A stretch of 38,457 nt of DNA, taken from NCBI GenBank assembly GCA_001899085.1, contig MKVB01000003.1, forward strand, positions 1,863 through 40,319, in the 5' to 3' direction. This document shows positions 3,401-21,557 of this stretch, piece after piece (position 1 is the stretch's first letter; each line of letters begins with the position of its first letter). A model generated the notes under the pieces. That model was not told the DNA's origin and did no database searches. It saw only the letters and a list, made by a program, of their open reading frames with translations. The position numbers were made by a program, and so were the translations under genes. Source of the stretch: Devosia sp. 66-14. Its GTDB lineage: Bacteria > Pseudomonadota > Alphaproteobacteria > Rhizobiales > Devosiaceae.

Positions 3401-3444
3401 GTGGCCCGGTTCGTCCTCTCAATCGATGATCGTCAATGACGATT

Positions 3445-3610: not shown

Positions 3611-3616
3611 GGCAGC

Positions 3617-4633: not shown

Positions 4634-5391
4634 CGCGCCGCGCCGAACAGCCGGGACAGCGTTTCAAAGGAGCGCTTCGCGACATATTGCCAGTCAGCCG
4701 GCTCATCGTGCTCGACGATCGCGAGCCCGGCGCCGGTGGCATTGATCGCCGGCAGCAGGCCGACCCAGTCGATCACGCCATCACCGAGAGCGGTCCAGCC
4801 GTCTTCGGCGGTGGTACCGAGCGGCGCCGCGTCCTTGGCGTGGATCGCCACGATCCGGTCGGCGAAGCGCCTGAGCTCGGTCTCGATATCCCCGCCGGCC
4901 TGGAACACCCAGCCGCAATCGAGCTCGAGCCGGACCAGCGGATCGGAATGCGCCATCAGCAGGTCTATGGGCCGGGCGCCGTCGGCCAGCGCGACGAACT
5001 CGAAGTCGTGGTTGTGCCAGGCGAACCCGAGCCCCGCCCGTTCGGCCTTGAGGGCATCGTCGGACAGACGGGTCGCAAGGCGCTTCCAGCCATCCTGGTC
5101 GGCGGGACGGCGCTCCGGGGTGAGACCGGGCCGGACAATCATCCTCGCTCCCAGCAGGTGCGCCAGCTCGATGAAGCCGTCGATATCGTCCTTTTCGGTC
5201 GGGTCCGGGATCATAACGCTGGGCGCATCCAGCCCCGCATCATCCATGGCGCGCCGGAAGCTGTGCGGATCGTCGAGATAGGCCCCCGGCCACAGCTCGA
5301 TATGGTCGTAACCCACGCCTTTCAGAAATGCGAACTGGCCGGTGAGCGGCAACGCCTTGCGCGAGGTGTAGAGTTGGTAGGCGGTATCCAT
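4630..5391 (-). CDS. Sugar phosphate isomerase/epimerase family TIM-barrel protein
   Basis: This 253-residue protein belongs to the AP-endonuclease-2-like (xylose-isomerase-like) TIM-barrel superfamily. Putative metal-site segments appear in the usual order: IELWPG near the start, AWHNHDFEF in the middle, LELDCGW, IHAKD, and IVEHDE near the end. I start it at the ATG at 5389-5391, which has a very good Shine-Dalgarno sequence (GGAGGAACG); a longer frame to 5433 lacks one. It is preceded by its own promoter and an operator matching that of the importer, so it is probably a catabolic enzyme for the imported sugar. Members isomerise or epimerise sugars and keto-sugars or cleave 3-keto-glycosides; which reaction applies cannot be told. 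Confidence 0.85.
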   Translation of the reverse strand: MDTAYQLYTSRKALPLTGQFAFLKGVGYDHIELWPGAYLDDPHSFRRAMDDAGLDAPSVMIPDPTEKDDIDGFIELAHLLGARMIVRPGLTPERRPADQDGWKRLATRLSDDALKAERAGLGFAWHNHDFEFVALADGARPIDLLMAHSDPLVRLELDCGWVFQAGGDIETELRRFADRIVAIHAKDAAPLGTTAEDGWTALGDGVIDWVGLLPAINATGAGLAIVEHDEPADWQYVAKRSFETLSRLFGAAR

Positions 5392-5443
5392 CGTTCCTCC
5401 GGATGCTGGACCATCGGCCGCGCAATCTGACATCGCGCGATTG

Positions 5444-5691: not shown

Positions 5692-6483
5692 GTGAATTCT
5701 TCGGAAGATCGCTACGCCATTCGATCGGTGGATCGGGCAGTCGACATTCTGGCGGCGGTGGCGGCCAGCAACGGCGCGCTGACGGTGGACGGCATCGTCG
5801 CCGATACCGGCCTCCCCAAGAGCACGGTGTTCCGCATTCTCGCGACGCTGACGGCGCGGCGCGTGCTGGATCGGGACGAGCAGAGCCAGACCTATCGGCT
5901 GGGCATGCTGGCGCTGGTGATCGGGGCACGGGCGATGGGCGAGCTGGACCTCCGCCGTTCGGCGCGTCCACATCTCGAGAGCCTCGTCGCCAGCACCGGG
6001 GAAACGGTGCACCTGTCGATCCTCAGCGACGACAACGCGCTGTGCGTCGACAAGCTCGACGCCTCGCGCTCGATGCGCATGGCGAGCTTCATCGGCTTTC
6101 TCGATCCGCTGCATTGCAGCGGCGTCGGCAAGGCGCTGCTGGCCTTCCAGGACGAGCCGGTGCGCCAGCTGCTAATGGCGCGCATGCGGTTCGAGCCGCA
6201 CACCCCGCACACCATCACCGACCCCGGTCGCCTCGCCGAACAGATCGTCGAGATCCGGGCGCGCGGCTATGCCATCGACGACGAGGAAATCGAGCAGGGG
6301 CTGCGCTGCGTCGCGGCGCCGATCCGCGACCATTCCGGCGCCGTCGTCGCCGCCGTCAGCATTTCCGGCCCCACCACCCGCGTCACCCAGGATGGCCTCG
6401 GCGACCTCGCCAAGGCCGTCGAAGCCTGCGCCCGGGCCATCTCGCAAGAACTCGGCGCTCCCCAAAAGGTCACCACTCCATGA
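5692..6483 (+). CDS. IclR-family transcriptional regulator (first of two in region 2)
   Basis: This 263-residue protein has an N-terminal winged helix-turn-helix (IRSVDRAVDILAAVAAS, then LPKSTVFRILATL, about residues 10-55). A C-terminal GAF-like effector domain contains the family segments ETVHLSIL, SGVGKALLA and GYAIDDEE. The start is a GTG without an obvious ribosome-binding site, chosen because it gives the usual N-terminal length; translation from a leaderless or weakly bound message is possible. The stop overlaps the amidohydrolase start by 4 bp (ATGA), so regulator and enzyme are in one operon. It probably senses the substrate or an intermediate of the region 2 pathway. Confidence 0.9.
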   Translation: MNSSEDRYAIRSVDRAVDILAAVAASNGALTVDGIVADTGLPKSTVFRILATLTARRVLDRDEQSQTYRLGMLALVIGARAMGELDLRRSARPHLESLVASTGETVHLSILSDDNALCVDKLDASRSMRMASFIGFLDPLHCSGVGKALLAFQDEPVRQLLMARMRFEPHTPHTITDPGRLAEQIVEIRARGYAIDDEEIEQGLRCVAAPIRDHSGAVVAAVSISGPTTRVTQDGLGDLAKAVEACARAISQELGAPQKVTTP

Positions 6484-7367
6484 TCATCGACGTCCACTCG
6501 CATACGCCGCAGTTCCGCCATGCCGTGCCGCCGGAGAACCGGCGCCTGCACCACACCTGGCGGCCCGACCGCTCGGTGGATTCGGTCTATAGCTGGAACG
6601 ATTTCCTCGAGGCGCAGCAGCCGGCCGACAAGTCGATCGTCTTCGGCGTCGCCTGGGCGCCGGGCGAAATCACCGGTGGGGTCAACGGCTTCAACGAGCC
6701 GGGCGACGTGGCAGTGGGCGTCAACGATGCCACCTCGGCCTTCGCGCTGGCGCATCCCGACCGGCTGATCGGCTTCATGTCGGTGCATCCGCATGACCCG
6801 AAAGCGCTCGAGGAGATCGAGCGTTCGCGCACCGACCTTGGCCTCAAGGGCATCAAGATGGGCGCCAATTACCAGGTGTTCGAGCCGCTGGAGAGCCGGG
6901 CGCTGGCGATCTATCGTGAGGCCGAGCGGCACGGGCTGCCGATCCTGTTCCACATCGGCACCTCGCCGGTACGCACGGCGCCGATCAAGTACGCCCATCC
7001 GCTGGTGGTCGACGAGATCGCCATGCGCTACCCCAACCTCAAGATCATCATGGCCCATATGGGCCACCCCTGGACTGTCGATACCGCGGTGGTGATCCGC
7101 AAGCACCCCAATGTCTATGCCGATGTCTCGGGCCTGCTCTACCGGCCCTACACCTTCTACGAGGGGATGATCAAAGCTACCGAGTGGAACGTGCTCGACA
7201 AGCTGCTGTTCGCCTCGGACTACCCGATCACCACCCCGGCCGAGACGCTGCATGCGCTGCGCACCGTCAACGCCATCGTCGAGGGCACGGCGTTGCCGCG
7301 CGTCCCCGCCGACAAGATCGAACAGATCATCCACCGCGACAGCCTGACGCTGCTCGGCCTTTCCTAA
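6480..7367 (+). CDS. Amidohydrolase family 2 protein (metal-dependent TIM-barrel hydrolase/decarboxylase)
   Basis: This is a 295-residue amidohydrolase_2 (PF04909-type) protein. It begins MIIDVHSHTP, giving the HxH metal motif at residues 6-8. Further expected residues follow: LFHIGTSP in the middle, IIMAHMGHPW (the conserved histidine and glycine strand) and FASDYPITTP near the end with the catalytic Asp. Members hydrolyse lactones or amides, or decarboxylate aromatic and keto acids, usually with Zn or Mn. The ATG overlaps the IclR stop. The aminotransferase follows 14 bp later. In context it probably acts late in breakdown of the imported compound; the exact reaction is unknown. Confidence 0.88.
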   Translation: MIIDVHSHTPQFRHAVPPENRRLHHTWRPDRSVDSVYSWNDFLEAQQPADKSIVFGVAWAPGEITGGVNGFNEPGDVAVGVNDATSAFALAHPDRLIGFMSVHPHDPKALEEIERSRTDLGLKGIKMGANYQVFEPLESRALAIYREAERHGLPILFHIGTSPVRTAPIKYAHPLVVDEIAMRYPNLKIIMAHMGHPWTVDTAVVIRKHPNVYADVSGLLYRPYTFYEGMIKATEWNVLDKLLFASDYPITTPAETLHALRTVNAIVEGTALPRVPADKIEQIIHRDSLTLLGLS

Positions 7368-7381
7368 GAGTCTTAGTTCCT

Positions 7382-8671
7382 ATGCATATCGAGAAGTCCA
7401 AAAGCCTCACCGAACGCGCCACCAAGGTCATCCCCGGCGGCGTCAACTCCGCGACGCGGCGGCTGAGCCAGCCCTATGCCTGGGAATGGGCCGAGGGCGC
7501 CTATATCCGCGACGTCGACGGCAACACCTATCTCGACTACCACGCCGCCTTCGGCCCGATCGTCCTAGGCCATAACGACCCCGCGGTGAATGCCGCCGTC
7601 GCCAATGCGCTGAGCGGCCCGGACATGGTCGGCGTCGGCATCACCGAGCAGGAGATCATGCTCGCCGAAAAGGTGGTGCAGCACGTGCCTTCGGCCGAGC
7701 TGGCGCTCGCCTTCTCCTCGGGCTCGGAAGCCACCTACATGGCGGTGCGGCTGGCGCGCGGCGTCACCGGGCGCGAGAAGCTGATCAAGTTCCAGGGCAC
7801 GTTCCACGGCTGGCACGACTACCTCTTGATGAATATCGCGAGCCCTGCCGACAAGATCGGCAAGAAAGATCCGGGCAGCGCCGGCCAGCTCGCCGACGCC
7901 ATCGACAACACCATCATCGTGCCGTTCAACGACCTCGCGGCCACCGAGCAGGCGATCCTCGATCACCCGGGCCAGATCGCCGCCATCTTCATGGAAGCGA
8001 TCCCGCACAATATCGGCTGCGTGCTGCCGCGGCAGGATTTCGTCGAGGGGCTGCGACGGCTCTGCGACCAGCACGGCATCGTGCTGGTGTTCGACGAGGT
8101 GATCACCGGCTTCCGCCATGGGCTGGGCGGCTACCAGTCGGTGCTCGGGGTGAAGCCCGATATCAGCACCTTCGCCAAGGCCATCGCCAACGGCTACCCC
8201 TGCGCCATCATCGCGGGGAAGCGCGAACTGATGCTGCAGTTCTCCACCGCGCCGGGCGGCAAGGTGTTCGTCGGTGGTACCTATAACGGCCATCCGGTCG
8301 GCTCGGCCGCGGCGCTCGCCACCATCGCGGCGCTCGAGGACGGCAGCATCTACGAGCGCACCTTCCGGCTGGGCGACCGGATGCGCACGGGCCTCGCGGA
8401 AATCGCCGGCCGGCTCGGCATCGAGATGGTGTCGGCCGGCTTCGGCTCGGTGTTCACCCCGTATTTCATGAGCGGCAAGGTCGAGCGCTACGAGGACCTG
8501 CTCGCCAACGACACGGCGCGTGATCTCGCTTTCCGCCAGGGCATGTGCGAGCGCGGCATCTTCATGCTGCCCATGCCGATCAAGCGCAACCACATCAGCG
8601 CCGCGCATACCGATGCCGATATCGATCGGACGCTCGAAACCGCTGAAATCGTTATGAAAACGCTGCGTTGA
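7382..8671 (+). CDS. Class-III PLP-dependent aminotransferase, glutamate-1-semialdehyde-aminomutase-like
   Basis: This 429-residue fold-type I PLP enzyme has the architecture of glutamate-1-semialdehyde 2,1-aminomutase. It shows VIPGGVNS near residues 17-23, SSGSEAT at 112-118 (phosphate-binding), FDEVITGFR at 237-245, and the Schiff-base lysine in TFAKAIANG (about Lys266). It is probably not the haem enzyme HemL: the FHGWHD segment differs from HemL's 'YHGHAD'-like segment, and it sits among catabolic genes. It may transaminate, or shift an amino group on, an amino-aldehyde or amino-sugar acid intermediate. The ATG at 7382 lies 14 bp after the amidohydrolase stop. A large dyad follows its stop. 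Confidence 0.87.
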   Translation: MHIEKSKSLTERATKVIPGGVNSATRRLSQPYAWEWAEGAYIRDVDGNTYLDYHAAFGPIVLGHNDPAVNAAVANALSGPDMVGVGITEQEIMLAEKVVQHVPSAELALAFSSGSEATYMAVRLARGVTGREKLIKFQGTFHGWHDYLLMNIASPADKIGKKDPGSAGQLADAIDNTIIVPFNDLAATEQAILDHPGQIAAIFMEAIPHNIGCVLPRQDFVEGLRRLCDQHGIVLVFDEVITGFRHGLGGYQSVLGVKPDISTFAKAIANGYPCAIIAGKRELMLQFSTAPGGKVFVGGTYNGHPVGSAAALATIAALEDGSIYERTFRLGDRMRTGLAEIAGRLGIEMVSAGFGSVFTPYFMSGKVERYEDLLANDTARDLAFRQGMCERGIFMLPMPIKRNHISAAHTDADIDRTLETAEIVMKTLR

Positions 8672-8921
8672 GGTCAGACTTTTCATATGCGAAAAGTCGT
8701 ATTGATATATGATTGCAGCCGTCATAACGTTGCGATCTGACGACAGGCGGCGAGACACGGGGAAGCGCCTCGCCACCGATCGACCGGGCTGAACGGCTCG
8801 GCTGAGAATGTCGAAAATGCCGGGTCCGTTGGGCCGGACCGGGAAGGCCTGCAGCTCCGGTTGCAGGAAACGGCGTCGTTCGCGACGTCTCGTCGATGCA
8901 GTTCGTCAAGGAGGGAAAGCT
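8672..8921. promoter_or_regulatory. Control region before the region 2 binding-protein gene
   Basis: These 250 bp carry no gene. They begin with the inverted repeat at 8677-8698 and a possible -10 box TATGAT (8708-8713), leaving an untranslated leader of about 200 bases ending in a strong ribosome-binding site (AAGGAGGG). I see no recognisable riboswitch in the leader. Confidence 0.5.
8677..8698. promoter_or_regulatory. Inverted repeat GACTTTTC-N6-GAAAAGTC, candidate operator
   Basis: Two perfect 8-bp arms (8677-8684 and 8691-8698) flank ATATGC, 5 bp after the aminotransferase stop. The arms are AT-rich relative to this genome and no T-run follows, so an operator fits better than a terminator. 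A possible -10 box TATGAT lies 10 bp downstream (8708-8713), placing the dyad where a -35 element would be. One of the two IclR proteins is the natural candidate binder. Confidence 0.55.
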
Positions 8922-10247
8922 ATGACGATCACTAACGCCACCCGGGGCCTCGGTTCGCTGAACCGCCGCTCCTTCCTCAAGGCCGGCGGCGCCTCGGCGC
9001 TGGCCGCCAGCCTCCTGCCGGGTCTGATGACCGGCACTGCCAAGGCCGCTTACTCGGGTACGCTCGATATGCTGGCCTGGGACTTCCAGCCCGACACCAT
9101 CAAGTCGCTGGTCGGCGAATGGACCGCGGCGGGCAACCCGGCGGTCAATGTCGCGGTGATCCCGAACCTCGGTTACACCCCGGCGCTGCAGACCCGCCTG
9201 CGCGGCGGCGACAAGATCGACCTCTATTACAACTTCGCCTACAACTCGCAGAAGTTCGTCAACGAGGGCTGGGCCAAGACGCTGAACGGCCTGCCCGGCG
9301 TCGACGAGATGATCGCCGACATGTTCGAGAGCGCCCGCGGCCGCCACGTCAATGCCGCCGGCGACATCATCAGCGCCCCGTATTTCTCGGCCGTGCACAT
9401 GCTGCACTATAACGAGAAGTTCCTCGCCGATGCCGGCCTCGCGGTGCCGACGACGCTGAAGGAAATCTACGACGCCTCGAAGTCGCTGCAGTCGACCGTC
9501 GCCTCGCCCTATGTCGCCTACTGGGTGAAGGAATTCTGCGAGGAATACCTCCACACCTACCTGCTCAACGAGCAGATCACCGCCTTCGACGATGCCGGCC
9601 AGCCGGTGTTCGCCGACGACCCCAAGACCGTCGGGGTGTTCGAGTGGTGGCAGACGATGTACCAGGAAGGGCTCGCGCCCAAGTCGCTCTTGACCGACGA
9701 TCCGGGCAAGCTCAGCAACGAGATGGCGCAGGGCAACGCCGCCTTCTACGTGCTGCACCACTACTTCCTGACCTCGATCCGCTCGCTCGAAGGCCCGCAA
9801 TCGGCCAACGTCAAGTCGGCCGCCGCCGGCCCGTCGACGCTGCAGATCGGCGAAGTGCTGCAGATGGGCCAGTCCGACAGCGACGACGAGCGCCTCGCGA
9901 CCTGGGAGCTGATGAAGTACTACGGCTGGAAGGACACGGACGGGAAGTTCAAGGTGTTCAACCAGTGGGCCAAGGCCGCCGGCCTCGCCGCTCCCTATGC
10001 CGGGTTCTTCACCGACCCCGAGGTGATCGCCTCGTTCCCCGACTATTACGATCTGGCGATGCTGTCCGACACGTTCGCCAGCAAGTCGAACGTCGTGCCG
10101 GCCCGCACCCTGCCCTGGTACCCGGATTTCCAGGCCAAGGTCGGCGACATCGTCCATGCGCTACTGCTCGGCCAGGCCACCCCGGCAAAGACCGTCGAAG
10201 ATCTGACCGCTGCCGCCAAGGGCGCACAGGGCGGCCGGACGCTCTAG
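8922..10247 (+). CDS. Family-1 solute-binding protein of the region 2 ABC importer, Tat-exported
   Basis: This 441-residue periplasmic binding protein has a twin-arginine signal (NRRSFLKAGG, about residues 14-23) followed by an Ala/Leu stretch and a likely cleavage near AKA-AYSG. The mature part opens with LDMLAWDFQPD, as in carbohydrate-type family-1 binding proteins. A strong Shine-Dalgarno sequence (AAGGAGGG) fixes the ATG at 8922; the open frame upstream to 8808 has no such support. The permease genes follow after a 188-bp gap filled by a palindromic repeat, which may keep binding-protein mRNA more abundant than permease mRNA. The surrounding enzymes suggest an amino-acid derivative or aminosugar-like ligand rather than a plain sugar. 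Confidence 0.9.
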   Translation: MTITNATRGLGSLNRRSFLKAGGASALAASLLPGLMTGTAKAAYSGTLDMLAWDFQPDTIKSLVGEWTAAGNPAVNVAVIPNLGYTPALQTRLRGGDKIDLYYNFAYNSQKFVNEGWAKTLNGLPGVDEMIADMFESARGRHVNAAGDIISAPYFSAVHMLHYNEKFLADAGLAVPTTLKEIYDASKSLQSTVASPYVAYWVKEFCEEYLHTYLLNEQITAFDDAGQPVFADDPKTVGVFEWWQTMYQEGLAPKSLLTDDPGKLSNEMAQGNAAFYVLHHYFLTSIRSLEGPQSANVKSAAAGPSTLQIGEVLQMGQSDSDDERLATWELMKYYGWKDTDGKFKVFNQWAKAAGLAAPYAGFFTDPEVIASFPDYYDLAMLSDTFASKSNVVPARTLPWYPDFQAKVGDIVHALLLGQATPAKTVEDLTAAAKGAQGGRTL

Positions 10248-10251
10248 TCTC

Positions 10252-10368
10252 ACCTCTCCCTTTGGGGGAGAGGTCGGCCCGAAGGGCCGGGTGAGGGGGC
10301 CTTTCCCAAGCTCAGTGTTTGCAGCAAGGCCCCCTCACCCTGACCCTCTCCCCCAAAAGGGAGAGGGG
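10252..10368. repeat. Palindromic intergenic repeat between binding-protein and permease genes
   Basis: The element is built of nested dyads. ACCTCTCCC pairs with GGGAGAGGT (10252-10260/10266-10274), and CGGCCC with GGGCCG (10275-10280/10284-10289). A 15-bp arm GGGTGAGGGGGCCTT pairs with AAGGCCCCCTCACCC (10289-10303/10326-10340). CCCTCTCCC pairs with GGGAGAGGG (10344-10352/10359-10367). It has the organisation of the element at 32409-32520. As RNA it would fold into a very stable structure just after the binding-protein stop. Confidence 0.85.
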
Positions 10369-10435
10369 ACGCTTGAGCCGAAGCTGCGGCTAGCCCGAAC
10401 TCAACTGAATACCAAGCAACAGGACACGGGAGCCC

Positions 10436-11338
10436 ATGGCGGGAGCAACTGACCTACTCGGACCGAAAGCCGATCGCGCATTCGGGCTGAAGCTCGTGGC
10501 CCCAGCCATGATCATCCTGATCGTGCTGCTGGCCCTGCCAACCCTGCTCACCGTGGTCTACAGCCTGCACGACGTGCCGGCGAGCGGCTCGAGCTTCGGG
10601 CCGTTCGTCGGCATCGAGAACTTCACCATCATCTTCTCCAGCCCGGTGTTCTGGCGCTCGGCGCAGGTGACGCTGACCTTCGCCATCGGCTTCGTGGTCC
10701 TGTCGACAGTGATCGGGCTGGCGATGGCGATGCTGCTCAATCAGCGCTTCATCGGCCGCGGCCTGGCGCGCGCCCTCCTGATCATTCCATGGGCAACGCC
10801 GTGGCTGGTCATCGGCATCCTGTGGAAATGGTTTGCCGATGGCAGCGTCGGCGGGCTCAACGCCGTGCTGATGATGCTGGGGTTGACCAGCGACTATCAT
10901 CCGTTCCTCTCCGACCCGAACACCGCGCTGCCGATCACCGTGCTCGCCGCGGTATGGCGGCAGGCGAGCTTTGCCGGCATCCTGCTGCTCGCCGGGTTGC
11001 AGACGCTGCCCGAGGAACTCAACGAGGCGGCGCAACTCGACGGCGCCAACTGGTGGCAGCGCTTTTCCAACATCACGCTGCCCTGGCTCAGGCCGGTGCT
11101 GATCACCGTCACGGTGTTCAACGTGATCTACGCCTTCCTGCAGTTCGACGTGGTGTTCGCCATGACGCAGGGCGGGCCGGGCGACACCACGCAGGTGCTG
11201 AGCGTCTTGATCTACCGGCAGCTGTTCGTGAACACCAATATCGGGCTCGGTTCGGCGCTCGCCGTCATCCTCGGCGTCGTGGCGCTGATCGGCGGGCTGA
11301 CCATCGTCCGGCTGTTCTATCGCAGGGAGATGCACTGA
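10436..11338 (+). CDS. Carbohydrate ABC transporter permease, MalF type (region 2)
   Basis: This 300-residue inner-membrane subunit has a first helix at about residues 20-40 (LVAPAMIILIVLLALP) and five more hydrophobic segments. The EAA loop reads NEAAQLDGANWWQRF, and the FAMTQGGPGDTT segment near the C-terminus is typical of MalF/UgpA-like permeases. The ATG at 10436 follows a GGGAG ribosome-binding site. Its stop overlaps the next start by one base (TGATG). It forms a heterodimeric channel with the protein at 11338-12222; the ATPase is not encoded in this locus. Confidence 0.93.
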   Translation: MAGATDLLGPKADRAFGLKLVAPAMIILIVLLALPTLLTVVYSLHDVPASGSSFGPFVGIENFTIIFSSPVFWRSAQVTLTFAIGFVVLSTVIGLAMAMLLNQRFIGRGLARALLIIPWATPWLVIGILWKWFADGSVGGLNAVLMMLGLTSDYHPFLSDPNTALPITVLAAVWRQASFAGILLLAGLQTLPEELNEAAQLDGANWWQRFSNITLPWLRPVLITVTVFNVIYAFLQFDVVFAMTQGGPGDTTQVLSVLIYRQLFVNTNIGLGSALAVILGVVALIGGLTIVRLFYRREMH

Positions 11339-12222
11339 TGGCCTCCTCCGCCTTCGAGCGCGGCCGGCGCCGCAGCCCCGCCACCAGCATCGCCATCTAT
11401 CTTGGCGTGCTGGTCTTCGCAGTCTGGATCCTGCTGCCGGTCTGGTACCTGGTGGTCTCGAGCCTGATCACCCCATCGCAACTGGGCATCAAACCCTTCC
11501 CGCTGGTGCCGTCCAGCATCACCTTCGACAACTATTTCGCAGTGCTGTTCGGCAATACCGGCGGCAAGGGCATCGGCAGCACCGACATGGGCACCCGGCT
11601 CGTGCCGGCGATCGGTCAGAGCCTGCTCGTCAGTTCAGTGCTGGTGGTGCTGAACCTCTTCATTGCCGGTGCCGCCGCCTACGGGCTGTCGCGCTATCCG
11701 TTCCGCGGCGCGCGCGCCTTCGAGCTGTCGGTGATCGCCACCCGCATCGTGCCGGCGATCGCCATCATCGGGCCGTTCTTCGTGGCTTTCCGGGTCATCG
11801 GGGTGCTCAACACCCCGTGGGCGCTGGTGATCAGCTACAACGTGTTCACGCTGCCGCTGGCCATCATGATCCTCAAGAACTACTTCGATCAGCTGCCGCG
11901 CGAGATCGAGGAGGCGGCCAAGATCGACGGCGCTACCCGCTTGCAGACGCTGTGGATCATCATCGTGCCGATCGCCCGGCCGGGCCTCGTCGCGGCGGGC
12001 GTGTTGATCTTCCTCGAAGCGTGGAGCGAGTTCTTCTACGCCCTGGTGCTCACCAACCAGCTGACCGTGCCGCCGCTGCTCGCCGGCTTCCAGTCGGTGC
12101 AGCAGTTCAACTGGAACGCGCTTGCAGCCGCCACTGTCATGTCGATGCTGCCGCCGACCGTGCTGGTCCTGATCTTCCAGCGTCACGTGGTTGGCGCCCT
12201 TACTGCCGGAGTGGGCAAATGA
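11338..12222 (+). CDS. Carbohydrate ABC transporter permease, MalG type (region 2)
   Basis: This 294-residue inner-membrane subunit has about six membrane segments and an EAA loop EEAAKIDGATRLQTL. The periplasmic loop after the first helix (about residues 45-85, including a Gly-rich NTGGKGIGSTDMG stretch) is slightly long for the family. The ATG overlaps the preceding stop (TGATG), and the gene's own stop overlaps the Gfo/Idh start (ATGA), so transport and metabolism genes are tightly coupled. This is the clearest sign that the downstream enzymes act on what this importer brings in. Confidence 0.93.
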   Translation: MASSAFERGRRRSPATSIAIYLGVLVFAVWILLPVWYLVVSSLITPSQLGIKPFPLVPSSITFDNYFAVLFGNTGGKGIGSTDMGTRLVPAIGQSLLVSSVLVVLNLFIAGAAAYGLSRYPFRGARAFELSVIATRIVPAIAIIGPFFVAFRVIGVLNTPWALVISYNVFTLPLAIMILKNYFDQLPREIEEAAKIDGATRLQTLWIIIVPIARPGLVAAGVLIFLEAWSEFFYALVLTNQLTVPPLLAGFQSVQQFNWNALAAATVMSMLPPTVLVLIFQRHVVGALTAGVGK

Positions 12223-13268
12223 GTGCGACCATCAAAGCGGTAGTGCTGAGCGCCGGCGCCTGGTCGCAATCGAGCCACCTGCCGGCGCTCAAGGCCGACA
12301 ACCGCGTCGACCTCGTGGCGATATCGAGCCCGAACGCCGAGATGGCGGCCATGCTTGGCCGGCAGTTCGAGACCCGGCACTTTGCCGACTGGCGTGATGC
12401 CCTGGCGCTCCGCCCCGACATCGTCGTGGTCTCGAGCCCGCCGGTCGCACACGAGGAACAGGTGATCGCGGCGCTGGAAGCCGGTGCGCATGTCCTCGTC
12501 GAAAAGCCCTTTGCGCTCAGCGCCGGTGCTGCCCGCCGGATGCGCGATACTGCAGAGCGCTTGGGCAAGGCGCTGCTGGTCGGCTTCGGCTGGCCGGCGG
12601 CGCCGATCTTTGCACTGAGCCGCAAGCTGATCGAAGCGGGCGAGATCGGCAGGATCGAGCACCTGACGATGCACCTCGCGGTCAACACCCGGGCGCTGCT
12701 TTCGGGCAGCACCGATGGCGGCTGGGGCGGCAAGGCGGAGTCGAATACCGCGACCTATACCGACAAGGCGATCTCGGGCGGCGGCTCGGCGGCGGTGACC
12801 ATGTCGCACGAGCTGGGGATGGTCGAATGGCTGGTGGGCGAGCCGATCGTTGCGCTCAACGCCAGCACCTTCCCGCCCGCGAGCGACATCGACCTCCACA
12901 CGTCAGTCAATGCCGAGTTCACCGGTGGCGGCTCGGCGGCGATCAGCGCCGCCTCGACCCACCCCTACCTCGCCCGCCCCCAGTGGCACATGGCGCTCTA
13001 CGGCGACAAGGGCCAGCTCTGGGCCGACTCGGTGGCCGACACGCTGCGCCTCGTTCGCGCCAGTGGCGAGGTGGTCGAGTATGGAGCCCCGGAGGCCTCC
13101 GGCGTTTACGACCCCGGCGCCCCGACCAAGGCCCTGATCGCCTGCGCCTTCGGCGCCCCGGCGCCGGCCGGCCTGACGGCGCGGCTCGCGGCGCATGTCG
13201 TCGCCGTTACCGACGCCATCTATCTCAGCGCCAAGACCAACCAGAAACTGCAAGTCGAGACCCTATGA
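12219..13268 (+). CDS. Gfo/Idh/MocA-family oxidoreductase
   Basis: This 349-residue NAD(P)-dependent dehydrogenase has an N-terminal Rossmann fold and the family signature VEKPFAL (Lys at about residue 96) after the second half of the nucleotide domain. A C-terminal alpha/beta domain includes MSHELGMVEWL, where the histidine is a candidate catalytic residue. The dinucleotide-binding loop reads SAGAWSQSSH, so the usual third glycine is replaced by Ser. This occurs in some subfamilies but leaves cofactor preference open. It is coupled by 4-bp overlaps to the permease upstream and the deacylase downstream. It probably oxidises a hydroxyl group of the imported molecule. Confidence 0.9.
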   Translation: MSATIKAVVLSAGAWSQSSHLPALKADNRVDLVAISSPNAEMAAMLGRQFETRHFADWRDALALRPDIVVVSSPPVAHEEQVIAALEAGAHVLVEKPFALSAGAARRMRDTAERLGKALLVGFGWPAAPIFALSRKLIEAGEIGRIEHLTMHLAVNTRALLSGSTDGGWGGKAESNTATYTDKAISGGGSAAVTMSHELGMVEWLVGEPIVALNASTFPPASDIDLHTSVNAEFTGGGSAAISAASTHPYLARPQWHMALYGDKGQLWADSVADTLRLVRASGEVVEYGAPEASGVYDPGAPTKALIACAFGAPAPAGLTARLAAHVVAVTDAIYLSAKTNQKLQVETL

Positions 13269-14863
13269 GCACCTCCACCCTGTTTACCGGCGGCCTTGTC
13301 GTCGACGGCCTCGGCAATGCGCTCGTGCGTGGTGACGTGCTGGTGATCGGCGACCGCATCGCCGGCATTTTCAAGGGCGCCAGACGCCCCGAGGCCGACC
13401 GCAGCGTCGCCATCGATGGCCTCTGCATCGCGCCGGGCTTCATCGACATGCACACCCATTCCGACCTGCAGGTGCTGGTGAACCCCGACCACACCTCAAA
13501 ACTCAGCCAGGGCGTCACCACCGAAGTGCTCGGCCAGGATGGCCTCAGCTATGCCCCGATCGACGATGCGACGCTCATCGAGCTGCGCAGCCAGATCAAG
13601 GGCTGGAACGACGACCCGCCGGGCTTCGACTGGAACTGGCGCAGCGTCGCCGAATACCTGAAGCGGCTCGACGGCAACGTCGCGGTCAACTGCGCCTACC
13701 TGGTGCCGCACGGGAACCTGCGCATGCTGGTGATGGGCAATGCGGCGCGGCTCGCCACACCAGATGAGCTCGACCAGATGAAGGCGCTGCTGCGCACCGC
13801 GCTCGAAGAAGGCGGCGTCGGCCTCTCCACCGGGCTAACCTATGTGCCGGCGATGTATTCCGACACCGACGAGCTGGTGGCGCTGTGCGAAGTGGTGGCC
13901 GAGTATGGCGGCTTCTACTGCCCGCATCACCGCAATTACGGCACCGATGCGCTGGGCGGCTACGCCGAGTGCTTCGAGATCGCCCGCCGCTCCGGCGTGG
14001 CGCTGCACCTCGCGCACACGCATCTGAGCTTCGAGGCCAACAAGGGAAAGCTGCCGCAGCTGCTCAAGATGTTCGACGAGGCCATCGCCGATGGCGTCGA
14101 TTTGAGCTTCGACGCCTATCCCTACCTTGCCGGCATGACGACGCTGCTGTCGCAGCTGCCGAGCTGGGCGCTGTCGGGCAGCGGCGACGAGCAGATGGCG
14201 CGGCTCAAGGACCCGGAGACGCGCAAGCGCATCATCGAGGCGCTCGACGTCATCGGCTCGGATGGCCATCAGGGCCTCACCGTCAACTGGTCGAGCGTCT
14301 ACCTCGCGGGCCTCCCCGGGGCGCCCGAGATGGAATGGATGATGGAGGGCAACCTCGCCGACGCGGCGCGCAAGCTCAACACCTCGCCGGCCGAGCTGGC
14401 GCTCGACGTGCTGATCGCCACCGAGCGCGCCGCCCCTTGCGTGTTCTTCATCGGCATCGAGGAGCATGTCCGCACCCTGATGCAGCGCGAGGAACACACC
14501 GTCGGCAGTGACGGCATCCTGGTCGGCGATCGGCCGCATCCGCGCTCCTGGGGCACTTTCCCGCGCATGCTCGAGACCTATGTGCGCGAGGAGAAAGTGC
14601 TGACGCTGGAAGAATGCGTGCGCCACATGACCAGCTCGGCCGCCAACCGGCTGCGGCTGATGGATCGCGGCCGCATCGCCGCCGGCGCCAAGGCCGACCT
14701 GGTGGTGTTCGACGCGGCCAATGTGAAGGCCAACGCCACCTATGAGCACCCGCGCCAGGCTGCGACCGGCATCGTGCATGTGCTGGTCAATGGCCAGTTC
14801 GCCGTCGAAAACAACCGCGTCACCGGCCATCGCGCCGGCCGGACGCTGACGCTGGGAGCCTGA
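13265..14863 (+). CDS. N-acyl-D-amino-acid deacylase (D-aminoacylase)-like amidohydrolase
   Basis: This 532-residue amidohydrolase-superfamily enzyme resembles D-aminoacylases, which release D-amino acids from N-acyl derivatives. It has an N-terminal beta-sandwich strand (LFTGGLVVDGLGN), the HTHSD metal motif at residues 63-67, GLSTGLTYVP, and the histidine segments CPHHRNYG and LAHTHLS. At the end lies the metal-site Asp strand GSDGILVGDRPHPRSWGT. The Cys that often follows GN in this family (GNCG) is Asp here (GQDG, Asp92), which marks a separate subgroup. It overlaps the upstream gene by 4 bp and is followed 2 bp later by a D-amino-acid lyase-type gene. The natural acyl group and amino acid are unknown. 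Confidence 0.85.
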   Translation: MSTSTLFTGGLVVDGLGNALVRGDVLVIGDRIAGIFKGARRPEADRSVAIDGLCIAPGFIDMHTHSDLQVLVNPDHTSKLSQGVTTEVLGQDGLSYAPIDDATLIELRSQIKGWNDDPPGFDWNWRSVAEYLKRLDGNVAVNCAYLVPHGNLRMLVMGNAARLATPDELDQMKALLRTALEEGGVGLSTGLTYVPAMYSDTDELVALCEVVAEYGGFYCPHHRNYGTDALGGYAECFEIARRSGVALHLAHTHLSFEANKGKLPQLLKMFDEAIADGVDLSFDAYPYLAGMTTLLSQLPSWALSGSGDEQMARLKDPETRKRIIEALDVIGSDGHQGLTVNWSSVYLAGLPGAPEMEWMMEGNLADAARKLNTSPAELALDVLIATERAAPCVFFIGIEEHVRTLMQREEHTVGSDGILVGDRPHPRSWGTFPRMLETYVREEKVLTLEECVRHMTSSAANRLRLMDRGRIAAGAKADLVVFDAANVKANATYEHPRQAATGIVHVLVNGQFAVENNRVTGHRAGRTLTLGA

Positions 14864-14865
14864 GC

Positions 14866-16029
14866 ATGGCTGCAACCGCAATCTCCATCGCCAACGACGC
14901 CCGTGGCCCGAGCTGGGCCGAGCTGCCGGTCTCCACCCCCGGGCTGGTGCTCGATCTCGGCGTGCTGGACGGCAATCTCGACGAGATGGCGGCGATCGCC
15001 CGCTCGGCCGAGGTCGAACTGTTCCCGCACGCCAAGACCCACCGCATGGCCGAGATCGGGCTGCGCCAGGTGGCGCATGGCGCCGATGGCCTGTGTGTCG
15101 CCAAGCTCGGCGAGGCCGAAGCCTTCGCGGCGGCCGGGGTGAAGCGGCTGTTCGTCGCCAACCCGATCGTCGGCAAGGACAAGGCCGAACGGGCCCTCGC
15201 CCTGTCGCGGCGGGTCGACCTGACGCTTGCCACCGACAGCGAGGCGGCCGCCGCCAGCATCGGCGCGGTGTTCGCCGCCGCCGGCGCCACGGCGCGGATG
15301 ATGCTGGCGATCGATTCCGGGCTCGGCCGCGAAGGCGTCGCCGCCGACAAGGCGCCGGATGTGGCGGCGGCCATTCATGCCGTTGTCGGCGTCGAACTCG
15401 TCGGCATCTATACCCATGAAGGCACCACCTACGGCGCGAAGGATCATCCGGACCTCGCGAGCCGCGCCAAGGCGGCCGGGGAATTCATGGTGGGCGTCGC
15501 CACCGCCATCCGCGCCCGCGGCGTGCCGCTGCCGATCGTCTCGCTCGGGGCTTCCGCTTCGGCCCGCGAAGTGGCGCATGTGCCGGGCGTGACGCAGATC
15601 CGTCCCGGCATCTATGCCTTCAACGATGTCGGCCAGATCGCGCTGGGCAATGCCGGCCTGGACACCACCGCCATCCGCGTCATCGCCACGGTGGTCAGCC
15701 ACCCGGACCCCGAGCGCGCCTGTATCGACGCCGGTTCGAAATCGCTGAGCACCGATCTGGTGCCGGCCTCGGCGCATCGCGACGAGTTCCCCGGCATGGG
15801 GCTGATCGTCAACGCCCCGGGCTGGGTGATCGAGAAGATGTCGGAAGAACATGGCTGGCTGCGCTGGCATGGCCAGGGCGCGCCGATGCCGCTACCAGTA
15901 GGGACGCGGCTCGAGATCGTGCCGAACCATGTCTGCATGGCCTTCGCCATGCTGCGGCGGGCCAGTGTGGTCGAACGCGGTGAAATCGTCGCGCATTGGG
16001 ACGGTTTCGGTCCCGGCGCATCAGAGTAG
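14866..16029 (+). CDS. DSD1-like PLP enzyme: D-serine/D-threo-3-hydroxyaspartate dehydratase or D-threonine aldolase
   Basis: This 387-residue fold-type III (alanine-racemase-like) PLP enzyme has its Schiff-base lysine in FPHAKTHR (Lys57) near the N-terminus. The barrel includes DSGLGREG and YTHEGTTYG, and a C-terminal beta domain carries a metal site. That site reads PNHVC (His355, Cys357). His-x-Cys is the zinc pair of eukaryotic-type D-serine dehydratases and D-threo-3-hydroxyaspartate dehydratase, whereas D-threonine aldolases use His-x-Asp. I therefore favour dehydratase (keto acid plus ammonia) over aldolase. It starts 2 bp after the deacylase stop, so it probably consumes the D-amino acid released there. 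Confidence 0.85.
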   Translation: MAATAISIANDARGPSWAELPVSTPGLVLDLGVLDGNLDEMAAIARSAEVELFPHAKTHRMAEIGLRQVAHGADGLCVAKLGEAEAFAAAGVKRLFVANPIVGKDKAERALALSRRVDLTLATDSEAAAASIGAVFAAAGATARMMLAIDSGLGREGVAADKAPDVAAAIHAVVGVELVGIYTHEGTTYGAKDHPDLASRAKAAGEFMVGVATAIRARGVPLPIVSLGASASAREVAHVPGVTQIRPGIYAFNDVGQIALGNAGLDTTAIRVIATVVSHPDPERACIDAGSKSLSTDLVPASAHRDEFPGMGLIVNAPGWVIEKMSEEHGWLRWHGQGAPMPLPVGTRLEIVPNHVCMAFAMLRRASVVERGEIVAHWDGFGPGASE

Positions 16030-16047
16030 GTTTTCTGTCTGGGGGGA

Positions 16048-17094
16048 ATGATGTCGGAGTTCAGACTTGCTGAGGGGCAGTCGCTGCTGGTCGCATCACG
16101 CGGCGTGTTCGAACTGCACGGGCTGACCCGCTGGGTGCAGCAGGACGGCACGTGGCGGGGCAAGACGCTCGCCCGGGTCAACCAGCTCTCGAGCCTGGCG
16201 CGTCACCCCAGCCTGCCGGTGGTCTACGGCACCTCGCGCGTCGGCCTCGAGGGCGAAATCCATGCCTGGCGGATCGCGGGCGATAGCGCCGTGACACTCG
16301 GTGAGAAATCGAGCGACGGGGCCGAGCCCTGTCATCTCACCGTCGATCCGAGCGGTCGCCTGCTGATCGTCACCAATTACACCACCAGCACGCTGGGGCT
16401 GCAGCGGCTGGCCGCCGACGGCAGCTTCGATGGCCCGATCGTGCAGCTGAAGCTCAGCGGCGGCGGTCCGGAACTCGAACGGCAGGACGACGCCCATCCG
16501 CACCAGGTGTTCTTCATCGGCGAGACGCTCGTCGTCATCGATCTCGGCGCCGACCTCGTCCGCGAGTTCAGCCTCGATCTCACGAAGCCCGGCACCGACG
16601 CGCTGACCCAGGTCCGGGCAACGTCAGTGCCCGCCAATACCGGCCCGCGCCACGCCGTGGTGCTGGCCGACGGGCGCCTCGCGGTCAGCGGTGAGCTCGG
16701 CTCGAACCTGGTGGTCGGCCGCCTCGGCGAGCCCGCATCGAGCTGGGCCAACCTGCGCAGCACCCGGCAATCCGGCCCCGGCAAGACCCGCTGGAGTCGC
16801 AACTATCCCGGCGACATCCAGCGTGCGCCGGATGGTCGGCACGTCTATTTCGCCAATCGCAGCCTCGACACCATCTCGACCTTCGAGGTCTCCGGCGCCA
16901 CGCCGGTGCTGGTGTCGGAACTGGACAGCGAGGCGCAGTGGCCGCAGCACCTGCTCGCCACCGAAAGTCACGTGCTGGTTGCCGGCTGGGACTCCTCGAC
17001 GGTCAAGGCGCTGCCCTTGGCCAATGGGGTTCCCACCGGCGTCGATCACCTGTTCGATTGTCCGGGAGCCGGCTGGCTGCTGCTTTGGGAGTAG
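16048..17094 (+). CDS. Beta-propeller lactonase family protein (6-phosphogluconolactonase-like fold)
   Basis: This 348-residue protein has the repeated seven-bladed propeller pattern of the lactonase family (PF10282-type). Examples are CHLTVDPSGRLLIVTNY, DDAHPHQVFF, NTGPRHAVVL and DIQRAPDGRHVYFANR. The last segments resemble the active-site blades of YbhE-type lactonases. It has no signal peptide, so it is cytoplasmic. A GGGGGGA Shine-Dalgarno run precedes two adjacent ATGs (16048 and 16051); either may be used. It follows the DSD1-like gene by 18 bp and ends the main operon. With the Gfo/Idh enzyme it suggests that a sugar-like ring is oxidised to a lactone and opened. Confidence 0.82.
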   Translation: MMSEFRLAEGQSLLVASRGVFELHGLTRWVQQDGTWRGKTLARVNQLSSLARHPSLPVVYGTSRVGLEGEIHAWRIAGDSAVTLGEKSSDGAEPCHLTVDPSGRLLIVTNYTTSTLGLQRLAADGSFDGPIVQLKLSGGGPELERQDDAHPHQVFFIGETLVVIDLGADLVREFSLDLTKPGTDALTQVRATSVPANTGPRHAVVLADGRLAVSGELGSNLVVGRLGEPASSWANLRSTRQSGPGKTRWSRNYPGDIQRAPDGRHVYFANRSLDTISTFEVSGATPVLVSELDSEAQWPQHLLATESHVLVAGWDSSTVKALPLANGVPTGVDHLFDCPGAGWLLLWE

Positions 17095-17104
17095 GGCGTT
17101 TCGT

Positions 17105-17217
17105 GCTCCCCTCCCCCCGCGGCGCTACGCGTCCGCTAGGAGGGGTGGGGGGTGGGGGTCCATCGGTGATCACCGGACCACCCCTCCCTCAATCCCTCCC
17201 CTCAGGGGGGAGGGAAG
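17105..17217. repeat. Palindromic intergenic repeat after the lactonase gene
   Basis: The element is GC-rich with C-runs on the left and G-runs on the right. Its centre holds the perfect 12-bp palindrome CGGTGATCACCG (17164-17175), preceded by GGGGGTGGGGGTCCAT... . The segment GGGGTCCATCGGTGATCAC recurs at 26262-26280 inside another repeat, so both belong to one dispersed family. It lies just after the stop of the lactonase gene and may act as a transcript 3' end. Confidence 0.8.
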
Positions 17218-17350
17218 CGACGACTGAGAGGGTCGGTACAGATCCCTGGATCAGTCCAGATTTCCTGTGCCTCGGCTCGCGCCCATGGTGGCGAGCCGGC
17301 GGGAGCGATGTTAGTGGACATCGGCGCCGCAGGCATCGAGCGAGGGGAGC

Positions 17351-18217
17351 ATGGCAGTAGCTGATAAAAGTGCCCCGGCCGCAGCCGAAAAGGGCACCCG
17401 CAAGCGCCGCAAGCCGGTTCCCAAGGCGGAGTACACCGCCCCGGCGCTGGAAAAGGGCCTCGACGTGCTCGAACTGCTGGCGACCCTGACGGTGCCGGTG
17501 ACGCCGAGCCAGATCGCCCAGCGCCTCGGCCGCTCGCTGTCGGAAGTCTATCGCATGGTCATGGCGCTGGAGCGGCGTGGCTATCTGATCCGGCCGCCCG
17601 GCGAAGAAGCGCTGGTGCTGTCGACACAGCTTTACGGTCTCGCCACGCTGTTCCCGCCGTTCCGGCGCGTCGTCGACGCGGCGCAGCCGATCATGAACGC
17701 TCTGGCGCTCGAAACGTCGCAGGCCATCCACATGGCGGTGCTCGATGGGCTGAACCAGCGCATCATCGCCCAGGTCGACAGCCCGGCGCCGATCGCCATC
17801 CGGCTGCGCGTCGGCGCCGCCAGCCCGGCCATCCGCGGCACTTCAGGGCGCACCATCATCGCTTTCCAGCCCGCCCCGGTACAGGCCTGGATCATCGGCC
17901 AGTCGGAGGCGCTACTGCCGCCCGAGCAGGCGAGGCGCTACCGCGGCCGGATCACGACGATTGCCGGACGCGGCTACGAGCGGATCGAAGGCGAGATGGT
18001 GCAGGGGGTGACCGACCTCAGCTTCCCGATCATCAACACCGCCGGCATCTCGATTGCGGCACTGACCATGCCGTTCCTCACCAGCCAGCAGATCATCGTT
18101 CCCTTCGATGATGCCGCCATCATGCTTTACCGCGCCGCACGCCGCATCTCGGAGTCGATGGGCGGGACCCTGCCCGAACCGCACTTCCCCCTGCCGCTGG
18201 ACATTCAGCCGCAATGA
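17351..18217 (+). CDS. IclR-family transcriptional regulator (second of two in region 2)
   Basis: This 288-residue regulator has a Lys/Arg-rich tail of about 25 residues, a winged helix-turn-helix (APALEKGLDVLELLA, then RSLSEVYRMVMALERRG, about residues 30-80) and an IclR effector domain (AIHMAVLDG, GTSGRTIIAF, GYERIEGEMVQG). It starts at an ATG with a strong GAGGGGAG ribosome-binding site, 256 bp after the lactonase gene, beyond a palindromic repeat. It overlaps the next gene by 4 bp. With the IclR at 5692 it brackets the operon, so the two may sense different metabolites of one pathway. The binding site is unknown. Confidence 0.9.
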   Translation: MAVADKSAPAAAEKGTRKRRKPVPKAEYTAPALEKGLDVLELLATLTVPVTPSQIAQRLGRSLSEVYRMVMALERRGYLIRPPGEEALVLSTQLYGLATLFPPFRRVVDAAQPIMNALALETSQAIHMAVLDGLNQRIIAQVDSPAPIAIRLRVGAASPAIRGTSGRTIIAFQPAPVQAWIIGQSEALLPPEQARRYRGRITTIAGRGYERIEGEMVQGVTDLSFPIINTAGISIAALTMPFLTSQQIIVPFDDAAIMLYRAARRISESMGGTLPEPHFPLPLDIQPQ

Positions 18218-18678
18218 CCGAGACCAATCCCTTCACCGCAGACGATGCCGACCGCTTCGCCATCTGGGAGATGCTGGTCAGGCGCGACAGCGATTTCTTC
18301 CTCAGCAGCGACTGGTCGCTGGTCGCTGCCGACTATGTCGAGACCGGCTTTCTCGGCATCGATGCCGGGCTGTCGCTCGACCCGGCCAGCTGGCGCCCGG
18401 CCTACCCGAATGTCGCTCTGTATCGCGACGCCGCCATCGCCGCGCGCTGGAACCCCGCCGACTTCGCCGAACCGCTGCGCCCCGCCTGGTTCCGATGCCA
18501 GTCGATCGCGCGGCTCGATATCGAGGGCGACGCAGCGTTGGCGCATAAGCACATCGAAGGCCGCATTCGGCGCCTGACGGGCGAGGACATGCTGCTGGGC
18601 TGGCGTTCGGTGTTCCATCTCAAGCGGGAGAACGCCGTATGGAAGATCGCCGGCTTCACCGGCTACCTGCCGCTATAG
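18214..18678 (+). CDS. Small NTF2-like (SnoaL-type) protein of unknown function
   Basis: I do not recognise a characterised family with certainty. The 154 residues begin with a helical segment (ADRFAIWEMLVRRDSDFFLSSD). They end with a strand pattern (GWRSVFHLKR, VWKIAGFTGYLPL), the arrangement of NTF2-like folds, where the last strands carry 'W-R-x-x-F-x-x-x-R'-like motifs. There is no signal peptide or membrane segment. The start ATG overlaps the IclR stop (ATGA), so it is co-expressed with the regulator. Such proteins can be small isomerases, dehydratases or ligand-binding partners. A role in the region 2 pathway is inferred from position only. Confidence 0.7.
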   Translation: MTETNPFTADDADRFAIWEMLVRRDSDFFLSSDWSLVAADYVETGFLGIDAGLSLDPASWRPAYPNVALYRDAAIAARWNPADFAEPLRPAWFRCQSIARLDIEGDAALAHKHIEGRIRRLTGEDMLLGWRSVFHLKRENAVWKIAGFTGYLPL

Positions 18679-20729: not shown

Positions 20730-21557
20730 ATGAGCTTGACCACCGAGCAGAAGCAGCAGTTCTACCGCGATGGGTTCCTCGCGATCCGCGGACTGTTCAG
20801 CGCCGCAGAGATCGAGGAGATCCGTGGCACGTTCATGGAGATGGCCAAGGACGGCCCGGTGCCCGGCCTGTCGGATGTGCCCAAAGCGCGGGAGGGGGCG
20901 CCGGCGAGATCGAACGACCCGCTGCTGCGCTATCCGCGCATGATGCACCCGCACAAGCACCAGGATAAACCGGTCGGGCCGCTGGCCATGCGCTACATGC
21001 GCGACCCGCGGCTGAAGCCGATCCTCGCCGAGCTGTTCGGCGAAGATCCGTACGCCTGCCAGTCGATGTTCTACTTCAAGCCGCCGGGAGCCCGCGGACA
21101 GGACCTGCACCAGGACAATTTCTACCTGCGGGTGAAGCCGGGCACCTGCATGGCCGCCTGGATAGCCGTCGATGATGCGGATGCCGGCAATGGCGGCATG
21201 ATGTGCGTGCCGCAAACCGCGACGCTCGAAGTGGCGTGCCCCGAAAAGGCCGACCCGGCGCTGTTCTTCACGACCGAACATGTGGAGCCGCCGCCGGGCC
21301 TCGCCCCTGAAATGATGGAACTCAAGGCCGGCGACGTGCTGTTCTTCAATGGCAGCGTCATCCACGGCTCGACCCCGAACACCAGCGCCGACCGCTTCCG
21401 CCGTTCGCTGATCTTCCACTATGTGCCGGCCAGCACCGTGGAGATGAGCCACTATTACGAGGCGCTGAGTTTCGACGGCGCGAAGCAGGATATCGCCACC
21501 AACATGGATGGCGGCCCGTGCGGCACGACGCAGGAGCTGCCGACCGGGCCGCATTGA
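20730..21557 (+). CDS. Phytanoyl-CoA dioxygenase (PhyH) family Fe(II)/2-oxoglutarate oxygenase
   Basis: This 275-residue oxygenase has a double-stranded beta-helix. The iron-binding triad is visible: LHQDNF (His127, Asp129) and VIHGSTPN (His212). The 2-oxoglutarate-binding arginine lies in RFRRSLIFHY (about residues 222-231). A GAGGAGG ribosome-binding site sets the ATG at 20730. PhyH enzymes hydroxylate lipids, ectoine, phosphonates and other small molecules; the regulator next door gives no specific substrate. It converges with the GH1 gene, 50 bp away, and is not part of that operon. Confidence 0.88.
   Translation: MSLTTEQKQQFYRDGFLAIRGLFSAAEIEEIRGTFMEMAKDGPVPGLSDVPKAREGAPARSNDPLLRYPRMMHPHKHQDKPVGPLAMRYMRDPRLKPILAELFGEDPYACQSMFYFKPPGARGQDLHQDNFYLRVKPGTCMAAWIAVDDADAGNGGMMCVPQTATLEVACPEKADPALFFTTEHVEPPPGLAPEMMELKAGDVLFFNGSVIHGSTPNTSADRFRRSLIFHYVPASTVEMSHYYEALSFDGAKQDIATNMDGGPCGTTQELPTGPH

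Follow-up and report, generated by a model that had tools for sequence, protein, structure and literature searches.

The locus described here lies in a window of 38,457 nucleotides of Devosia sp. 66-14 DNA (positions 1863–40319 of contig MKVB01000003.1, C3, in a genome of 5.72 Mb) and joins the genes of a sugar-type importer to those of a Gfo/Idh/MocA dehydrogenase, a D-aminoacylase-like deacylase (DAM), a DSD1-like pyridoxal phosphate (PLP) enzyme (DSD) and a lactonase (LAC) (Table 1). Ten locus proteins were scanned with Pfam and NCBIfam, and IclR2 and a 154-amino-acid (aa) open reading frame (ORF) with Pfam only. Pfam backs the family assignment of nine of the ten, the exception being the solute-binding protein (SBP), and none of the ten reached an NCBIfam equivalog cut-off. 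All of the genes named in an earlier note on this DNA were found, in the order given and on the + strand, with families that agree with Pfam. The tightly overlapping run described in that note holds for P1 through LAC (10436–17094), in which adjacent genes overlap by 1, 4 and 4 bases or are separated by 2 and 18, but not for SBP, which is set off by gaps of 250 bases from AT3 and 188 from P1. The amidohydrolase and aminotransferase genes (AH2 and AT3) do precede the run, but with IclR1 they form a separate tight unit (5692–8671), called module 2 below. Both IclR genes said to flank the run are present; IclR2 follows a 256-base gap, and the boundary at 18678 is the end not of IclR2 but of the 154-aa ORF, which closes the locus with it.

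Table 1. Features of the Devosia sp. 66-14 locus, in window coordinates
Feature	Position	Strand	Basis
IclR1, IclR-family regulator of module 2	5692..6483	+	Pfam IclR_C and HTH_IclR above cut-off
AH2, Amidohydro_2 metal-dependent hydrolase	6480..7367	+	Pfam, 124.8 bits (cut-off 26.4)
AT3, class-III PLP aminotransferase, glutamate-1-semialdehyde (GSA)-aminomutase type	7382..8671	+	Pfam Aminotran_3; hemL equivalog cut-off not reached
Putative operator/promoter, CATATGCGAAAAGTCGTATTGATATATGA	8684..8712		Conservation among relatives' loci
SBP, solute-binding protein with a signal resembling those for twin-arginine translocation (Tat)	8922..10247	+	Position, Tat-like signal, weak SmoF-like PDB matches
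P1, CUT1-type permease	10436..11338	+	Pfam BPD_transp_1; top NCBIfam UgpA, below cut-off
P2, CUT1-type permease	11338..12222	+	Pfam BPD_transp_1; top NCBIfam MalG, below cut-off
Gfo/Idh/MocA dehydrogenase, proposed C1 dehydrogenase	12219..13268	+	Pfam; no NCBIfam equivalog
DAM, D-aminoacylase-like N-deacylase, GQDG clade	13265..14863	+	Pfam Amidohydro_3; related to solved D-aminoacylases and PpOngB
DSD, DSD1-like fold-III PLP enzyme, H355-x-C357	14866..16029	+	Pfam Ala_racemase_N and D-ser_dehydrat
LAC, 7-bladed beta-propeller lactonase	16048..17094	+	Pfam Lactonase, 163.3 bits
IclR2, IclR-family regulator	17351..18217	+	Pfam IclR_C and HTH_IclR above cut-off
154-aa ORF, overlapping IclR2 by 4 bases	18214..18678	+	No Pfam match

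DAM relatives were followed in the best 80 of at least 346 matches confirmed in named genomes, 14 of the 80 loci spanning less than 12 kb; a DSD-like neighbour was found in 21 of the 80 and an SBP-like neighbour in 18. Sixteen alphaproteobacterial loci were picked by DAM (L029–L040) or by DSD (L109–L112). DAM, DSD and LAC occur together in all 16 and SBP-P1-P2-Gfo in 13, and the co-occurrence check proposed in the earlier note thus bears out its linkage of enzymes to importer. AH2 and AT3 are present in 9 of the 16 loci, IclR2 in 11 and a homologue of the 154-aa ORF in 5. Of 19 genomes in the genus, 8 have a DAM orthologue; these eight also have a DSD orthologue, as does G013, a fragmented genome (82% complete) with DSD on a 3.7-kb contig and AH2 at 99% identity, in which DAM was not found. 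A related set is carried by eight loci in metagenome-assembled genomes of Chloroflexota/Anaerolineae (L047–L050, L052–L055), where identities to the window proteins are 44–46% for SBP, 42–48% for the permeases, 27–32% for Gfo, 46–47% for DAM, 35–38% for the DSD-like protein, 65–68% for AT3 and 70–73% for AH2. Across both phyla, conservation is highest for AT3 and AH2, and the Chloroflexota DSD and Gfo may be analogues, given that their identities are about those of paralogues. All eight loci have a PTE-family (phosphotriesterase) gene instead of the propeller lactonase. The gene arrangement goes beyond chance, as other genera and a second phylum carry the set too.

SBP, P1 and P2 are predicted to be the binding protein and two permeases of a CUT1 ABC importer. 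The Pfam scan of SBP gave only a Tat-signal match, below cut-off, and no binding-protein family; SBP weakly matches solved structures, e.g., SmoF at E 5.6e-7, and is 44–92% identical to 16 relatives. There is no ABC ATPase gene in the run, and a MalK-type query (the L039 ATPase) matched the window only at 30713–32329. Upstream of SBP, L035 and L039 have genes for a MalK-type ATPase and RidA, and no other locus among L029–L040 has RidA in that place. The loci without Gfo (L034, L040 and L112) carry a CUT2-type importer in place of CUT1, recognized by Pfam in L112 (Peripla_BP_4, BPD_transp_2 and ABC_tran) and by 83–89% identity in L034 and L040. IclR2 accompanies DAM-DSD-LAC in loci of either importer type.

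DSD contains Ala_racemase_N (96.1 bits, cut-off 24.1) and D-ser_dehydrat (90.6 bits, cut-off 22) domains. Its PNHVC segment aligns with PNHAC of the D-threo-3-hydroxyaspartate dehydratase 3wqc and PYHAC of the D-serine dehydratase 3anu; the corresponding segment of the D-threonine aldolase 4v15 is PSHVD. We take the residues of the H-x-C motif to bind metal. Since DSD has H-x-C, not H-x-D, elimination is favoured over aldol cleavage; aldolase action was set aside on this motif, and the earlier note's view of DSD as a dehydratase-type enzyme stands. By score, the solved relatives of DSD rank as D-threo-3-hydroxyaspartate dehydratase, then D-threonine aldolase 4v15, then D-serine dehydratase. 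LAC matches the Pfam propeller-lactonase family and falls short of the propeller 6-phosphogluconolactonase equivalog (61 bits against a cut-off of 370).

DAM is homologous to the solved D-aminoacylases 1m7j and 3gip and to PpOngB, for which we use the residue numbering in the available text of PMC12017989. His68, His222, His252, Tyr194 and Tyr285 of PpOngB are identical in the aligned DAM, and the Asp of GSDG and the Arg of HPR are aligned between DAM and its relatives. Elsewhere, Cys97 is replaced by D92, Lys254 by H253, Glu226 by Y225, Ser290 by G290, Ser291 by M291 and Ser292 by T292, the last being the D-aminoacylase state at that position. According to the same text, OngB-like and D-aminoacylase sequences alike conserve Lys254 and Ser291; DAM, with H253 and M291, thus departs from both groups. 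Asp stands opposite Cys97 in the window, Tsukamurella, L048 and L043 sequences and in 21 of 24 aligned rows, with Cys in L088, L098 and L103. The mononuclear Cys/His/His metal site of the OngB family includes Cys97, where DAM has Asp92, and the family's Ser292, which contacts the C3 hydroxyl, is Thr292 in DAM; these two positions rule out membership of DAM in the OngB carbohydrate de-N-acetylase family.

We propose, with a probability of roughly 0.55, that the locus is a conserved module for the oxidative, initially non-phosphorylated catabolism of an N-acetylated 2-amino sugar. SBP-P1-P2, with an ATPase encoded elsewhere, would bring in an N-acetylhexosamine, either as such or as an oligomer or derivative. 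Gfo/Idh would oxidize C1 to give a lactone, LAC would open the lactone to a 2-acetamido aldonate, DAM would remove acetate from it, and DSD would eliminate ammonia to leave a 2-keto-3-deoxy aldonate, which after phosphorylation could be consumed by general enzymes such as 2-keto-3-deoxy-6-phosphogluconate (KDPG) aldolase. The enzyme types fit the sequence of oxidation, opening, deacylation and elimination put forward in the earlier note, though we infer the order itself. That note had further called for a composite substrate, part sugar and part N-acyl beta-hydroxy-D-amino acid. None is required, because a single 2-acetamido aldonic acid already combines a sugar-like character with that of an N-acyl beta-hydroxy amino acid; the 2-acetamido-2-deoxy aldonic acids, gluco and galacto, have the D form at C2. 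The proposal is supported by the constancy of DAM-DSD-LAC and of SBP-P1-P2-Gfo in the alphaproteobacterial loci, by the related Chloroflexota set, by the H-x-C motif of DSD, by a KDPG aldolase above cut-off in the Devosia genome, and by the ong precedent and the RidA, kinase and aldolase genes near DAM relatives.

Nor is the scheme without a described counterpart, as the earlier note had held. In the ong cluster of Pseudoalteromonas, according to the available part of PMC9537276, OngB deacetylates and OngC deaminates N-acetylglucosaminic acid (GlcNAc1A) to 2-keto-3-deoxygluconate (KDG), and the cluster includes KdgK and a RidA protein. The core logic of the locus is therefore already described, the deacylase and PLP-eliminase pair matching OngB/OngC in logic. 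Beyond the two ong papers, no title or abstract opening found in the open literature describes the gene set; a haloarchaeal paper proposes, in its available part, a phosphorylated amino-sugar route (PMC13260240). On a Tsukamurella plasmid (L114), a 47% DAM relative is found with RidA, IclR, a sugar kinase, a fold-III alanine-racemase-like PLP enzyme, KDPG aldolase and a gluconate symporter. The top models for the kinase are KDG and 2-keto-3-deoxygalactonate (KDGal) kinases, below cut-off, and the aldolase passes the eda cut-off. The Ong-like set makes this actinobacterium a candidate user of amino-sugar acids, outside Gammaproteobacteria. L043 and L045 hold RidA-IclR-kinase-DAM-Eda.

A number of observations weigh against an amino-sugar substrate, the replacements in DAM at six PpOngB positions among them. 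The Tsukamurella PLP enzyme is just 26–27% identical to DSD, and among the neighbours in L043 and L045 no fold-III PLP enzyme was detected. At E 1e-8, a neighbour similar to the window DSD is missing from 59 of the 80 DAM loci (L058 and L068 among these have one resembling the Tsukamurella fold-III enzyme), DAM relatives at 35–54% identity stand mostly in other gene settings, and one plasmid relative adjoins a diaminopropionate ammonia-lyase gene; in view of those 59 loci and the ammonia-lyase context, DAM by itself does not define the substrate. The Devosia genome has two NagA genes above cut-off, so that plain N-acetylglucosamine would not need an oxidative route, and it has no AA10 lytic polysaccharide monooxygenase (LPMO; PF03067). 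Searched at E 1e-3, the window yielded no relative of RidA (Tsukamurella and L039 queries), of the KDG-kinase-like Tsukamurella protein or of Eda. Gfo/Idh enzymes are not bound to act at C1, and AH2 and AT3 are unexplained by the amino-sugar scheme.

An alternative that we consider unlikely is the scavenging of N-acyl beta-hydroxy-D-amino acids (D-Ser, D-Thr, D-3-hydroxyaspartate or conjugates), in which DAM would deacylate, DSD would dehydrate, and Gfo/Idh and the lactonase would act on the sugar part of a conjugate. T292 of DAM, a residue kept in D-aminoacylases, and the amino-acid substrates of the solved DSD relatives would suit such a role, but linkage to a CUT1-type importer and a lactonase would not, and the CUT2-importer relatives keep DAM-DSD-LAC without Gfo. 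Plain D-amino-acid catabolism is ranked behind the amino-sugar proposal because of the importer, the lactonase and the KDG-kinase-like and KDPG-aldolase genes that neighbour actinobacterial DAM relatives.

Module 2 bears on a second alternative. AH2 is 67–94% identical to 12 relatives, Chloroflexota included, and is split over two contigs in G017/L029. At E 1e-60, AH2 relatives occur in 33 of 301 sampled Chloroflexota genomes, the centre G464 included, the other listed Chloroflexota relatives being 42–57% identical; among 385 sampled genomes of the host's class, none was found at that threshold apart from its own. The contexts of distant AH2 relatives (48–57%; 12 loci, L171–L182, in 11 other Chloroflexota genomes) were mixed and gave no substrate: an AT3-like gene adjoins AH2 in L177 (54%, with an IclR gene at 34%), L171 (31%) and L172 (30%), and not in the other nine. 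AT3 is homologous over its whole length to the GSA aminomutases 5i92 and 6w80. It scores 382.6 bits for hemL against a cut-off of 527.3, on which HemL function was rejected, and 398 against 398 for the broader PRK00062 subfamily, at the limit. The aminomutase stretch PSAFEAGF of 5i92 aligns with PMPIKRNH in AT3, Glu standing opposite Lys, and all 10 sequences compared share KRNH. In Alphaproteobacteria, aminolevulinate comes from the Shemin route. In Devosia rhodophyticola (L039, 18584–21237), genes for a GatZ/KbaZ-like aldolase subunit and an SIS-domain protein precede AH2-AT3 by about 0.4 kb in the same orientation.

Of 13 alphaproteobacterial CUT1-Gfo genomes (the window uncounted), 12 have AH2 at 65% identity or more, G448/L032 being the exception, versus 0 of 3 CUT2-version genomes (G450, G456 and G006), an association only, as the genomes are related. 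Since AT3 and AH2 track the CUT1 version, a further moiety or step is possible. They would fit a glycoside route, in which Gfo/Idh would form a 3-keto glycoside from an amino-sugar or aminocyclitol conjugate and AH2 and AT3 would handle the second part. The Chloroflexota loci point the same way: all eight add a second Gfo, and L048 11627–12808 passes the L-rhamnonate dehydratase cut-off (516 vs 393 bits), with 82–91% relatives inside the cluster in the other seven. Such a route is nevertheless improbable, for no glycosidase family was found among the Pfam-scanned proteins, and in Kaistia (L147–L149) IclR1-AH2-AT3 forms its own unit, apart from the importer run. In L148 and L149 this unit adjoins CUT2-type genes (by Pfam in L148, by similarity in L149) and an enolase-superfamily gene, whose L149 copy scores 280 bits, under the L-rhamnonate dehydratase cut-off of 393. 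Alongside the amino-sugar pathway, then, IclR1-AH2-AT3 may be a second, separable module for the same or a related substrate.

The single GH20 match of the Devosia genome lies on another contig (L195, C5:266000–285900), beside a second DSD1-like gene 35% identical to DSD, and the 20-kb L195 stretch around it holds no full-length DAM-type deacylase. Least probable is the ong-like uptake of C1-oxidized chitin fragments made by other organisms' LPMOs, with Gfo/Idh acting on another position or substrate, which would agree with a genome that has a GH20 gene yet no AA10 LPMO and with CUT2 variants that, lacking Gfo, might take in acid or lactone, but not with the retention of Gfo in 13 of 16 loci or with the distance of GH20 from the run.

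The putative site at 8684–8712 reads CATATGCnAAA...TTGATATNTGA, lies about 210 bases before SBP and overlaps a perfect inverted repeat at 8677–8698. The repeat was rejected as the conserved unit, only the CATATGC...TTGATATNTGA element being conserved. TTGATATNTGA occurs once per locus in 15 of 17 alphaproteobacterial loci scanned (exceptions L035 and L038) and in none of four Chloroflexota loci scanned (L047, L048, L049 and L052); the expectation from base composition is about 0.04 in ten of these loci combined, which are, however, related. In the CUT2 relatives it also precedes the importer: the distance to the binding-protein gene is about 60 bases in L112, and that to the homologous match is about 75 in L034 and L040. 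Allowing 3 mismatches at most, the Devosia genome contains a single match to the full element. The short form is not specific, for it occurs alone in L054 (inside AT3), L067, L071 and L080. IclR2, common to both importer variants, is the likeliest reader of the site and probably controls the run through it, against which stand the Kaistia loci L032, L033, L036 and L037, with the site and no IclR2 in the locus, and an actinobacterial IclR neighbour nearer to IclR1 (35%) than to IclR2 (19%).

Other features of the window were noted. The gaps before P1 and IclR2 contain GC-rich, repeat-like inverted repeats (10248–10435 and 17100–17210), perhaps a dispersed intergenic element. At 211–5433 lies a further CUT1-type importer run on the − strand (two permeases and a binding-protein-like gene) with a LacI-type regulator on the + strand and a TIM-barrel isomerase-like gene; these were named by eye except for the permeases, which are similar to P1/P2. 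A second sugar locus (20730–30550) contains a PhyH-family dioxygenase gene and a PHP-domain gene and, by eye, AraC-type regulator, GH1-like, CUT1 importer, GH42-like and LacI-type genes.

A bolder form of the amino-sugar proposal, which we hold only tentatively, is that amino sugars are oxidized in Alphaproteobacteria and Chloroflexota by a complete pathway of their own, separate from the marine ong system. An Asp-for-Cys lineage of D-aminoacylases would have taken on aldonate deacetylase function, the pathway would start from the unoxidized amino sugar by means of a C1 dehydrogenase and of lactonases that can replace one another (propeller or PTE family), and the AH2-AT3 pair would add an undescribed step. 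If the proposal is right, oxidative amino-sugar catabolism, known mainly from chitin-using Gammaproteobacteria in the available parts of the ong papers, extends to Alphaproteobacteria and Chloroflexota, part of a widespread protein class annotated as D-aminoacylase gains a function, and the conserved amidohydrolase-aminotransferase pair becomes a testable problem.

Among known systems, the ong pathway of Pseudoalteromonas prydzensis (PMC9537276 and PMC12017989, as far as available) shares a D-aminoacylase-like deacetylase followed by a fold-III PLP deaminase, and RidA, KDG-kinase-like and KDPG-aldolase genes stand near some DAM relatives. It differs in having an SSS importer and a MurR/RpiR regulator, in contrast to the CUT1 ABC (or CUT2) importer, with BPD_transp_1 permeases, and the IclR regulators found here. 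The Devosia run has Gfo/Idh and a lactonase in addition, and its DAM has neither the Cys ligand nor Ser292. The ong cluster includes RidA and KDG kinase genes, of which the window shows no relative (E 1e-3, with the Tsukamurella and L039 proteins as queries), and the Devosia genome has no AA10 LPMO. With the D-aminoacylases 1m7j and 3gip, DAM shares HxH, two further His, the catalytic Asp and the carboxylate-binding Tyr and Arg, but it has Asp for the Cys ligand and His for the carboxylate Lys. DSD resembles the DSD1-type enzymes 3wqc and 3anu along the chain and in the H-x-C motif, whereas its gene neighbours point to a sugar-acid substrate, and AT3, unlike GSA aminomutase, adjoins amidohydrolase and importer genes.

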